This document shows positions 23,189 through 64,000 of a stretch of DNA of 64,000 nt, piece after piece. The position numbers were made by a program, and so were the translations under genes. Source of the stretch: Bdellovibrionales bacterium (GTDB lineage: Bacteria > Bdellovibrionota > Bdellovibrionia > Bdellovibrionales > JAKFYE01); the NCBI GenBank assembly GCA_021731045.1, contig JAKFYE010000003.1, positions 1 through 64,000 of the forward strand. The letters are read 5' to 3'. The notes beneath the pieces were generated by a model. The model was not told the origin of the DNA. It made no database searches and worked only from the letters and a program-made list of their open reading frames with translations. Position 1 is the first letter of the stretch. Every line of letters begins with the position of its first letter.

Positions 23189-23253
23189 CTACCTTTGCGC
23201 TCGTAGCATTTCCAGCTTCAACTTAAATTGACAACTCCATTCGCATGTCAGAC

Positions 23254-23316
23254 AAATAGGTGCCTACCACCTTTTGTGGATGCGACGCATCCACAAAAGG
23301 TGGTAGGCACCTATTT
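23254..23316. repeat. 63 nt perfect palindrome upstream of mutL
   Basis: Arms 23254-23284 and 23286-23316 are perfectly complementary over 31 bases around a single central A. A possible promoter element TTGACA (23228-23233) lies just before it. The mutL ATG is 24 bases after it. Confidence 0.9.
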
Positions 23317-23339
23317 GGGAGCTCAGATTGGGAAGTCGC

Positions 23340-45755: not shown

Positions 45756-46148
45756 GCTCTAAAGACCGCGCGTGCGCTAACTCCATGTTTTAGCGCATCG
45801 CTTTGATTCTGAGTCTTCCAACAAAAAACTAAACTCATTTATCTCCATTGAAACCTGGCTTGCGGTAAGGGTTCGACATTCCTTTTCGAATATCTCTTCT
45901 TCTTGTAATTGCTTTCGGCCGCAGGTTGTCTTCGGATTGCATTACTTGATCGAAAGCAATTAAGAGAAAGCTTGCCAGGCTTGCATAACGCAACCCGGAT
46001 ACACCCGTGCACGACGCAAACTACAAGAAGAAGAGATATTCGAAAAGGAATGTCGAACCCTAGCTCAATTTTAAGTATTTCAATGGAGATAAATGAGTTT
46101 AGTTTTTTTGTGTGCGCTCAATGTGAGTCATCGGAATAGTACGTAAGT
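45756..46148. other. Gap between convergent genes, filled by a palindromic element
   Basis: The 393 base gap between the 57 aa gene and the L,D-transpeptidase gene is largely one inverted-repeat element (45823-46108). No real gene was found. Confidence 0.7.
45823..46108. repeat. Long branched inverted-repeat element 1
   Basis: Outer arms 45823-45853 and 46078-46108 are perfectly complementary (31/31). After an internal loop (14 and 16 bases) inner arms 45868-45907 and 46022-46061 are perfectly complementary (40/40). The core (45908-46021) has a 10 bp hairpin ATTGCTTTCG/CGAAAGCAAT (45908-45917 with 45951-45960) and TTGC-GCAA near 45981-45993. CCTGGC in the left internal loop (45854-45859) can pair with GCCAGG in the core (45974-45979), a possible pseudoknot. 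Same plan as 62688-62941. Confidence 0.92.
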
Positions 46149-60822: not shown

Positions 60823-61494
60823 ATGAAGTTTTATAAAGTTCTCGCCTGTTTCGGATTAGGTCTTATTATCGCAAGTTCGGCTCATGCAAAACGAATCGAA
60901 ATTCAAAATAATGAAACTAAAGAAGAAGTTGAAGAAGAAACTTCTGCGCCTACCGGTCGTGGAGAAGCGACAAAGTATTTTTCAAAATCCCGCCGAAGCC
61001 CAGCCGCCGCGGGCTCGCGTGATCATTATTTAGGAATTCACGTTGGCGGATTTATGAGCTCTGAGTCTTACGTTTGGGGCAGAGAAGAAAAGGCCGAAGA
61101 CATTGGCAAAATGAATATTGGTGTTACATACCGTATGGGCGAATGGATTAATGCGGCTGATTTTCTCCTTCGTGGCGATTTTATTAGTTACGAAGTGGAT
61201 GAAGCTAAACCTTTGAAACTCAGCGTGATATTTGCTGCTGCTTTTCCAGATTCGAACAGTCGCTTTCCTTTGTATTTTGGAGCAGGAGTTGGTCCTGGTA
61301 TCTTCTTTAAACAGGCTAAGAATGAATCGCCAGTGTCTTTAGATTACCAACTCTTCGGTGGTTTGCGATTTTTCGACGTCATTGAGAGTGTTGGATTTTT
61401 TGGCGAAGCCGGACTAAAAAATCATTTTAATCTTCTGAGCGATGGACAATTTAATAGCGTATTTTACTCGGTAGGAGCTCTGTTTACATTTTGA
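60823..61494 (+). CDS. Predicted outer-membrane beta-barrel protein
   Basis: A 223 aa exported protein with signal peptide MKFYKVLACFGLGLIIASSAHA, then an acidic Glu-rich linker (NETKEEVEEE), a basic stretch, and a barrel of about eight strands (about 65-223) ending GALFTF with the terminal aromatic. The barrel opens YLGIHVGGFMSSESYVWG, like the barrel of the 6372 gene. Specific role unknown. The next gene overlaps its end by 4 bases. Confidence 0.75.
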   Translation: MKFYKVLACFGLGLIIASSAHAKRIEIQNNETKEEVEEETSAPTGRGEATKYFSKSRRSPAAAGSRDHYLGIHVGGFMSSESYVWGREEKAEDIGKMNIGVTYRMGEWINAADFLLRGDFISYEVDEAKPLKLSVIFAAAFPDSNSRFPLYFGAGVGPGIFFKQAKNESPVSLDYQLFGGLRFFDVIESVGFFGEAGLKNHFNLLSDGQFNSVFYSVGALFTF

Positions 61495-62693
61495 AGCTCC
61501 ATCGTCATCTCGTTCTTGAAGTTATATCGATTCTTAAAGCTATTTTTAGTGATGGCGTTTATTCAGATAAAGCCATCGAGGCGGCACTCAAATCACATCC
61601 TAAATGGGGAGCCCGCGATCGTCACTTTGTGGCCGAAACTGTTTACGAATCGGTGCGATGGTGGCGACGTATTTGGTCGTGCCTGGGCATTAAAGCCAAT
61701 ACGAAATCAGAGTCTTTATTTTTATTTATCGCCGCTCTTTGGGTTGTAGAAGATAAAGACATTCCAGATTGGCCAGAACTCAAAAATCTAGATGTTCAAT
61801 CTATCAAAACGCGATGGCAACAAATGGACAAATCTTCGGCTGATTATCATGCTGTACCCACGTGGTTGCATGAACTGGGGCAGCAAGAGTTAGGCTCACA
61901 ATGGATCGCGGCGATTGAAGGTTTAAACCGCAAGGCAGATGTGGTTTTAAGAGCAAATACGCTCAAGACAATTCCTAAAGCGTTAGTTGACACTTTAAAA
62001 ACCGAACTCATCGAAAGCGAAACGCTCGAAAATTATGCCGAAGCTGTGCGCCTTTTAAAACGCGCCAACGTATTTCGTACAAATGCATTCAAAGATGGGC
62101 TCTTCGAAGTTCAAGATGCGGCTTCGCAAAAAGTGGTCGCAATGTTAGAGCCCCAAATGGGCGAGCGAGTGATTGACGCGTGCGCCGGAGCCGGGGGAAA
62201 GTCCTTACATTTAGCGGCTCGTATGAAAAATAAGGGCAAAGTCATTTCGCTCGATATTCATGAACACAAACTTGAAGAATTAAAAAGGCGCGCCCGTCGT
62301 AACAGCATTGATATTATCGAAACCCGTGTCATTGATACAAATAAAACGATCAAACGTTTGGAACAAACAGCCGATGCCGTACTTTTAGACGTACCTTGTA
62401 CTGGCTTAGGCGCTCTACGACGAAATCCTGATACTAAGTGGAAGCTTCGTCCAGAAAATTTAACTACGCTTTTAGAAACTCAAAAACAAATTCTGCAAGA
62501 CTATTCTAAAATGGTAAAGCCAAACGGAAGAATGGTGTACGCGACTTGCAGCATTTTACCTTCTGAAAACGAAAAACAAGTACAAAACTTTATTAAGACA
62601 AATCCAAATTGGACACTCACCCAAGAGCACCGCGAATGGCCACACATTAATGGATTCGACGGCTTCTATATGGCGCTGCTCAAAAATAATTAA
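61491..62693 (+). CDS. RsmB/NOP-family 16S rRNA m5C methyltransferase
   Basis: SAM-dependent RNA m5C methyltransferase. The 400 aa protein has a NusB-like helical N-terminal domain (about 1-130), the SAM site DACAGAGGKSLHLAA (229-243), and the two catalytic cysteines C303 in DVPCTGLGALRRNPD and C353 in ATCSILPSENE. The start is TTG 61491, overlapping the previous gene; AGGAG is farther away than usual. The stop codon lies inside the outer arm of the palindromic element. Confidence 0.9.
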   Translation: MKLHRHLVLEVISILKAIFSDGVYSDKAIEAALKSHPKWGARDRHFVAETVYESVRWWRRIWSCLGIKANTKSESLFLFIAALWVVEDKDIPDWPELKNLDVQSIKTRWQQMDKSSADYHAVPTWLHELGQQELGSQWIAAIEGLNRKADVVLRANTLKTIPKALVDTLKTELIESETLENYAEAVRLLKRANVFRTNAFKDGLFEVQDAASQKVVAMLEPQMGERVIDACAGAGGKSLHLAARMKNKGKVISLDIHEHKLEELKRRARRNSIDIIETRVIDTNKTIKRLEQTADAVLLDVPCTGLGALRRNPDTKWKLRPENLTTLLETQKQILQDYSKMVKPNGRMVYATCSILPSENEKQVQNFIKTNPNWTLTQEHREWPHINGFDGFYMALLKNN

Positions 62694-62941
62694 TTTCTAA
62701 TTTTCTGACTTCATTGAGATCAACTCTATGAATGAAGAGCTCTCTTTTTTCTTTCTATGTTCGTAAATCAGGGCGCCCCTCCGTGGGCGCATGAGCGCGC
62801 TCTCGCGGCCATCGTGGCCGCGAGTGGACTATGCGTCCACCGCGCGCTCAATCCTGATTTACGAACATAGAAAGAAAAAAGAGAGCTCTTCATGTCTACT
62901 TTAGAAACATCTCAATGAAGTCAGAAAATTAGAACTTAATT
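62688..62941. repeat. Long branched inverted-repeat element 2
   Basis: Outer arms 62688-62720 and 62909-62941 match 32 of 33 pairs and cover both convergent stop codons. After an internal loop (11 and 15 bases), inner arms 62732-62772 and 62853-62893 are perfectly complementary (41/41). The core (62773-62852) folds as a cloverleaf: GCGCCC/GGGCGC (62773-62790), then TGAGCGCGC/GCGCGCTCA (62792-62800 with 62842-62850) enclosing CTCGCGGCCA/TGGCCGCGAG (62802-62824) and TGGAC/GTCCA (62825-62839). Same plan as 45823-46108. Confidence 0.93.
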
Positions 62942-63437
62942 ACTTTTGAATGACAGGTGGGGATTGGGAGTCAGATGGGGCCGTGTCGGAGTGTAGAAGC
63001 GATTTGATTTTAGGTGTGCGAAGGGTGATGTTGGGCATTGTGAGGAGGTTGCATAAGAGGGCACCGAATCCATAGAGGTAAAACCTAGAAGAGTCTTTTA
63101 GGATGAAGCCGTAATAAAAGCCGATCATGATAAAAATTTCGTTTGTAAAAAGAAAGAGGGCGTACAGGGCAGAGAGCTGGCCCAATTGGCCTAATGTCGG
63201 ATTTTGAAGTCCTAAGACGACTTTTTTAATCTTTATTTGTAACCAAAATGAGAGTGCCAGGCTGGCGCCGATGAGTACATTAATAATGGTGTCGGCCGTC
63301 GAAGTAATAACAAGTTTTTGATCTTGCCATTCTTCGGATAGAGAAGCGCCAACGAGTAGTAGCATAATGACCGACGATGTGAAACCGATCCATATAAACC
63401 AGTTTGTGCGATTAAAGTAAGACTGATCTGTATCCAT
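62940..63437 (-). CDS. Four-helix membrane protein of unknown function
   Basis: A 165 aa protein from ATG 63437 with four hydrophobic segments: WFIWIGFTSSVIMLLLVGASL, IINVLIGASLALSFWL, LSALYALFLFTNEIFIMIGFYYG and FYLYGFGALLCNLL. A polar C-terminal tail (SLLHSDTAPSDSQSPP) follows. No family recognised. ATG 63467 would overlap the desaturase gene by 20 bases and is less likely. It follows the desaturase by about 10 bases, probably in one transcript. Confidence 0.62.
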   Translation of the reverse strand: MDTDQSYFNRTNWFIWIGFTSSVIMLLLVGASLSEEWQDQKLVITSTADTIINVLIGASLALSFWLQIKIKKVVLGLQNPTLGQLGQLSALYALFLFTNEIFIMIGFYYGFILKDSSRFYLYGFGALLCNLLTMPNITLRTPKIKSLLHSDTAPSDSQSPPVIQK

Positions 63438-63447
63438 GTTTGTTTGC

Positions 63448-64000
63448 TTAGCGTGATTTGACCGCATAATTTTTAACGGCAGATGTTTTTTGAGTAAGAG
63501 GGTTAATTAACACCGAGGTGTTTTTGTAAATTCTCGGAGTGCGATAAAGATCGAGCATCGCTTGCCACTTGGGCGTAACTTGAAAACGATCTGGCCACTC
63601 GCTTTTAATCGCGTTGTGAAGCACGCGCGCGTGGCGACTCGACACCGTCGGAAAAATATGATGTTCGACATGATAACCAAAATGAAGGCTCAAAAATTCT
63701 AAAATCGGATGATTTGTAACCGTTACCGAATTAATCAAAGGGTCATTGACGTTGGTGAGAGGGCTTAAATTGTGATTGGTCGAAATATAGCTCATCACGG
63801 CGTAATTTTGAATGAAAAAAGGAATGACCCATACCCATAAAAGCGAGCCCACGCCACCAAACTTGACCGCAACCGCAAGAAACGAAAAGTAAAAAAAGAT
63901 TTGCAATGCAAACTCTTTGTTTACGCGTTTATGATCAATGCCATCGTAAATGCTATTGCGAAACCGTAGATAGATTTGAGCGACAAACATATTAAAACTA
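63448..64000 (-). CDS. Fatty acid desaturase family protein, N terminus outside window
   Basis: C-terminal part of a membrane fatty acid desaturase. The third histidine box HVEHH (HFGYHVEHHIFPTVSSRHA) and membrane helices before it are seen. The frame stays open to the window end with no stop, so the ATG at 63990 is not trusted as the start; the first two histidine boxes expected in a full-length protein of about 350 aa should lie beyond. It likely introduces double bonds into membrane lipids. Confidence 0.85.
   Translation of the reverse strand, partial: SFNMFVAQIYLRFRNSIYDGIDHKRVNKEFALQIFFYFSFLAVAVKFGGVGSLLWVWVIPFFIQNYAVMSYISTNHNLSPLTNVNDPLINSVTVTNHPILEFLSLHFGYHVEHHIFPTVSSRHARVLHNAIKSEWPDRFQVTPKWQAMLDLYRTPRIYKNTSVLINPLTQKTSAVKNYAVKSR

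Follow-up and report, generated by a model that had tools for sequence, protein, structure and literature searches.

The 64,000-nucleotide stretch of a Bdellovibrionales draft genome analysed here (the window) carries a long palindrome at the end of an rsmB-like gene. Two questions arise from it: what kind of element is it, and what keeps its two halves complementary? We addressed them with folding, covariance and BLAST searches, in the genome to which the window belongs (G000; 2.58 Mb in 47 contigs, 83.5% complete) and in its relatives.

Architecture of element 2

The palindrome, which we call element 2, spans 270 bases (62680-62949; Table 1). From the outside inwards it consists of outer arms that are 95% complementary (39/41 matches), an asymmetric internal loop, inner arms that are 100% complementary (41/41) and a branched core of 80 nt. 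Its minimum free energy is -173 and -180 kcal/mol on the two strands (z = -19.6 and -20.1), and none of 200 dinucleotide shuffles folded as well. Arm complementarity and fold z-scores confirm the structure that a first-pass annotation of the window had claimed, and make it slightly longer: the outer arms given there as 33 bp with 32 matches do pair, but they are the inner part of 41-nt arms. The 11/15 internal loop, the perfect 41-bp inner arms and the position of both convergent stop codons within the outer arms were all described correctly. What did not hold up was the clean four-way core. The fold places a 6-bp hairpin beside a 9-bp stem topped by two hairpins, one of 9 bp (3-nt loop) and one of 6 bp (5-nt loop), so that the core, as modelled, is two nested three-way junctions.

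Table 1. Features of the window, with further copies of the short hairpin repeat (F1 and F2, the two element families described below)
Feature	Position	Strand	Length	Remarks
Short hairpin repeat	23253-23317			Further copies at L028:5248-5306, L031:6315-6387, L032:6168-6230 and L043:18328-18390
Element 1	45823-46108	+		Copy of the second family, F1; same architecture as element 2
rsmB-like gene	61491-62693	+		Pfam PF01189; upstream convergent neighbour of element 2; TAA stop at 62691-62693
Left outer arm	62680-62720		41 nt	Contains final codons and stop of the rsmB-like gene
Internal loop, left side	62721-62731		11 nt	Asymmetric
Left inner arm	62732-62772		41 nt	Perfect complement of 62853-62893; carries the TATSTTC-type motif common to F2 copies
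F2-shared stretch	62756-62869	+		73-90% identity with other own-genome copies
Core hairpin 1	62773-62790			GCGCCC-CTCCGT-GGGCGC; CTCC invariant in 12 copies; ACGGAG loop on the minus strand
Core 9-bp stem	62792-62800 / 62842-62850			Bears hairpins 2 and 3
Core hairpin 2	62803-62823			On the 9-bp stem
Core hairpin 3	62824-62840			On the 9-bp stem
Right inner arm	62853-62893		41 nt	
Internal loop, right side	62894-62908		15 nt	
Right outer arm	62909-62949		41 nt	Contains final codons and stop of the minus-strand ORF
ORF, family unassigned	62940-63467	-	175 aa	Other convergent neighbour; stop at 62940-62942

The rsmB-like gene is not truncated, since RsmB relatives carry the same DGF(Y/F) motif and end no more than a few residues from it. 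At the seven loci examined in other Bdellovibrionota, no palindrome adjoins rsmB. Bacteroidota predominate among the best-matching RsmB relatives in the species collection, intermixed with Bdellovibrionota at similar identity, and judged by these sequences an old transfer of the gene is possible.

Two families with one architecture

A BLAST search of the own genome found the core of element 2 at a dozen further places. A covariance model built from 12 copies (R1) identified 13 scattered copies of this family, which we designate F2. Element 1 is a member of another family, F1, with a different core; the own genome contains at least 11 full copies of it, together with fragments (covariance search R2). 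The outer arms of element 1 are 31 nt long, its loop is 14/16 and its inner arms are 40-43 nt, in keeping with the similarity in arm length and loop asymmetry noted in the first pass. We also scanned 458 kb of the own genome for structure only, and every inverted repeat with perfect arms of at least 35 bp was assigned to F1 or F2. With 13 F2 copies, 11 full F1 copies and relatives elsewhere in the order, the two elements are more than a pair and represent a class, as had been suggested.

Outward from the center, the core is followed by a variable inner arm, the loop and a variable outer arm, the arrangement already seen in the first pass. In nearly all copies the inner arms pair perfectly over 32-58 bp (mostly 37-58 bp), and they are copy-specific in sequence; a short motif (AATATCTTC / AATATCTCTTC) is all that they have in common, and the remainder varies by copy. 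In several F1 copies the asymmetric loop that separates the two pairs of arms is conserved. Copies of one family share a conserved core sequence, with strongly conserved loops (CCTCC and ATC[C/G]), whereas arms differ among copies. The initial description of structure conserved without sequence hence applies between families and to the arms, but not to the core within a family.

Three F1 copies lie within 3 kb on one contig (C9:88.7-91.8 kb, locus L033), two of them as neighbors in opposite orientation within one intergenic region. Among the genes between these clustered copies, which include a heptosyltransferase-like gene and others, we recognized no transposase. A third, short hairpin repeat, with perfect arms of about 30 bp, a 3-7 nt loop and the sequence GTGCCTACCACCTTTTGTGGATGC, is present in several own-genome copies (Table 1).

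Arm changes are mirrored

Within each copy the arms are nearly perfectly Watson-Crick, and changes, insertions included, are mirrored in both arms. In F2, 37 of 61 pairs had changed on both sides and one-sided changes were almost absent. Two F1 paralogs (L020 and L021) differ by nine mirrored arm changes, counted by eye and including a 1-nt insertion in both arms, versus about two unmirrored ones. Thirteen orthologous comparisons in a related genus (g14), not all of them independent, yielded 91 mirrored columns (two of them indels) versus 43 one-sided columns.

Coding sequence is caught up in these arms. Outer arms extend into the coding ends of genes, and inverted copies of the last codons recur on the far side, as at L023 (..KDALKNL*, a heptosyltransferase), L054 (..LTSAYAF*, a protein with a beta-barrel-type ending) and L053 (..KTDLRI*), and further at L025, L026, L058, L087 and L088. 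We take ..KDALKNL* to be the probable native end of the heptosyltransferase; solved heptosyltransferase structures fail to align over the final residues.

Arms are also replaced wholesale. In orthologous copies with flanks that are ~80-93% identical (L379/L394, L393/L409 and L373/L391), the arms are unrelated between orthologs, yet self-complementary within each genome. Copy-to-copy comparison in g14 found no arm sequence shared with other, non-orthologous copies, and BLAST found no source for inner-arm sequence elsewhere in the own genome. Two distant loci of one genome (L390 and L391 of G092) have cores that are 99% identical and arms that are unrelated.

We consider it likely that element 2 is a dispersed, non-coding palindromic element, probably non-autonomous, whose arms are rewritten at the DNA level by fold-back (template-switch) copying. 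The conserved branched core, of ~80 nt, would be what marks out the family and passes from one locus to another. The arms would be local, one being rewritten from the other by fold-back synthesis when the polymerase switches template at a hairpin or cruciform. Changes, indels or flanking host DNA entering one arm would then be mirrored in the other, and copying that continues beyond the element would duplicate the 3' end of the neighboring gene, inverted, on the far side. We infer the direction of this copying, from the gene to the far side, from the coding sequence and not from an ancestral element-free site.

Polymerases that switch template are documented to homogenize the arms of inverted repeats (PMC8604942, PMC7202029). 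There, too, one arm templates the other, multinucleotide changes are mirrored and the palindrome is a mutation hot spot, and the mirrored changes of our elements, indels included (91 versus 43 columns and the mirrored insertion), bear this signature. The documented cases differ in that they are mainly short, imperfect and non-dispersed repeats, whereas here arms of ~40 bp enclose a core conserved in more than 10 copies and gene ends are inverted. Inverted gene-end copies and whole-arm replacement go beyond documented homogenization, and the latter exceeds what simple homogenization predicts. A more far-reaching interpretation, which we put forward tentatively and regard as doubtful, is that Bdellovibrio-related bacteria harbor a self-rewriting class of mobile DNA: the conserved core would copy between loci and impose hypervariable mirrored arms replaceable as a unit, through an active, diversifying fold-back mechanism and not passive repair. 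Long perfect inverted repeats overlapping coding sequence are also described for the mitochondria of Nematomorpha (PMC6649704); those palindromes lie within organelle genes and are not described as a dispersed family built around a conserved core.

Pairing carries no wobble signature

Mismatches of the G-T and A-C type occur in the arms at 16:14 in F1, 24:27 in F2 and 33:45 in g14. Because G-T is no commoner than A-C, selection on RNA pairing of one strand is an unlikely source of arm complementarity; equal numbers would also fit selection on RNAs of both strands, so that the mismatch ratio alone is not decisive. In the core stems of g14, 765 of 768 cells are Watson-Crick and none is G-U, though several of the pairs are G-C in some copies and C-G in others.

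These counts bear on the possibility that the element is a structured RNA, a CsrA-binding decoy resembling TwoAYGGAY, in which GGA hairpin loops on the minus strand are shielded or shown by the long stem and RNA selection keeps the pairing. TwoAYGGAY (RF01731), which Rfam places in clan CL00106 with CsrB and for which CsrA binding has been proposed (PMC4333381), is like F2 in its long, poorly conserved outer stem and its GGA-type hairpin loops. The full length of RF01731 can be aligned to the minus strand of F2 copies, the CTCC loop (GGAG on the minus strand) is invariant in 12 of them, and 39 of 40 genomes, G000 included, encode CsrA (PF02599). The best score, 46.6 bits against a cut-off of 43 bits, was that of one F2 copy with permissive filters, but in gathering mode none of 19 loci passed, most F2 loci fall below the cut-off, and none of 119 genomes exceeded it. 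Most F2 copies keep GGA in only one loop and do not retain it in hairpins 2 and 3 (hairpin 2 retains it in some copies only), and the g14 loops read ATCC or ATCG. Element 2 itself has ACGGAG and ACGAT-type loops on the minus strand, not two AYGGAY hairpins. Neither the arms nor the core have an excess of G-U, F1 gave no match, and the descriptions of TwoAYGGAY that we found are without mirrored hypervariable arms or many copies per genome. We consider an RNA decoy quite improbable as an explanation, and by score and loop sequence the membership of F2 in TwoAYGGAY is not established.

F1 has no meaningful match in Rfam. That the class is undescribed, as first proposed, is uncertain for F2, with TwoAYGGAY scoring near its cut-off. 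Rfam matches of miRNA type at a loose threshold were rejected as generic long hairpins.

Comparative covariation is the main evidence for calling a structured RNA. The compensatory changes seen here are abundant, lack a wobble signature and are accompanied by mirrored insertions and inverted gene ends, and this covariation looks as though it arose at the DNA level. If fold-back copying is indeed the source, some motifs described as structured RNAs, where the stems are long and variable, may in fact be dispersed palindromes with recopied arms.

Placement relative to genes

We found 17 of 24 own-genome copies between convergent genes, versus 55 of 372 junctions (15%) overall (binomial p about 1e-9, calculated by hand; junction genes were called with a simple codon model, and two neighboring copies share one intergenic region). 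In g14 the count was 12 of 42 copies versus 14 of 114 junctions, with eight copies between divergent genes according to rough gene calls. Enrichment between convergent genes is thus strong in the own genome but much weaker in g14, and because only 12 of 42 copies there are so placed, convergent placement is not a general rule.

Such placement, and a hairpin that is very stable on both strands, would be expected of an RNase III site or of a transcription terminator acting in both directions, retained by selection for blocking antisense read-through, with arm copying incidental; in E. coli, most of the inverted repeats found where genes end are terminators (PMC6060812). The g14 counts, including the divergent copies, speak against this explanation, as do congeners, which at the same site make do with an ordinary terminator in 100 bp of intergenic DNA, and termination needs no core conserved over an order. 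We therefore think a terminator unlikely. With fold-back copying, which we favor, the bias in placement may reflect tolerance at gene 3' ends.

Distribution in the order and movement of cores

R1 matched nine of 40 genomes and R2 matched four of 40, each including the own genome; copy numbers in relatives are lower bounds, as only part of the first-look candidates were scored. On inspection many R1 and R2 loci have the same build, and a few R1 loci (e.g., L061, L074, L076, L077 and L078) fold otherwise and are partial, off-center or chance matches. Several complete genomes of g14 contain about a dozen or more copies. At the position of one element in G034, three congeneric genomes (G119, G121 and G122) have both flanks and 96-110 bp of plain intergenic DNA, with no element. 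The core was closer to a paralog in the same genome than to its ortholog in 12 of 16 comparisons, which suggests that cores move or convert between loci. Neither a spreading enzyme nor a target-site duplication was found for the elements, and we therefore only infer mobility. How fast arms are rewritten, in which direction and how widely should be directly measurable in the complete genomes of congeners.

Presence and absence at an orthologous site, multiple copies, conserved loops, a branched core and strict Watson-Crick pairing would also suit a DNA hairpin recognized by a protein (an HUH/Y1-type transposase, an integron-type integrase or another), with selection acting on the folded strand change by change. 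Mirrored insertions, inverted gene ends and whole-arm replacement, however, are hard to reach one change at a time. In four element-bearing genomes (G002, G012, G024 and G034) we found no Y1 transposase, and integron integrase (TIGR02249) exceeded its cut-off in none of 40 genomes, by which integron attC sites were excluded. We judge selection on a protein-recognized hairpin to be an unlikely origin of the arms. Against fold-back copying as a full account, the strong sequence conservation of the core loops suggests that they are recognized by some molecule, and hence a function that passive copying would not give.

REP/BIME elements with RAYT are similarly dispersed, intergenic, palindromic, non-coding and present in many copies; NEMIS, RPE and ERIC are further dispersed palindromic repeats, and arm sequence is conserved in such families. 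Our elements differ from these in that each copy has arms of its own and conservation lies on the loop side. With arms not conserved among copies, and no Y1 transposase in the four genomes above, membership in the REP/RAYT family was excluded.

The exact core pattern had no match in genome_contigs or viral_contigs, and distant BLAST searches of phages and plasmids found no match to the element. A two-AYGGAY pattern matched viral contigs 70 times; only two of these matches had an enclosing stem of at least 12 bp, and neither had the architecture of the element.

Further families of the order also contain the F1 core (CGUCUUCGG...CCGGAUACG) and its covarying inner helix, at L315, L316, L319, L327 and L329 (G023 and G029) and at related loci of G002; no Rfam entry matches this core, which in the own genome may form a pseudoknot. 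G023 has seven long palindromes in 140 kb, and a further palindromic family there combines perfect arms of 33-36 bp with a short core (L191:11790-11903 and L192:4547-4667). In G034, a 115-bp repeat of another kind adjoins an element (L062:1829-1944) and is found in many copies across g14 congeners.
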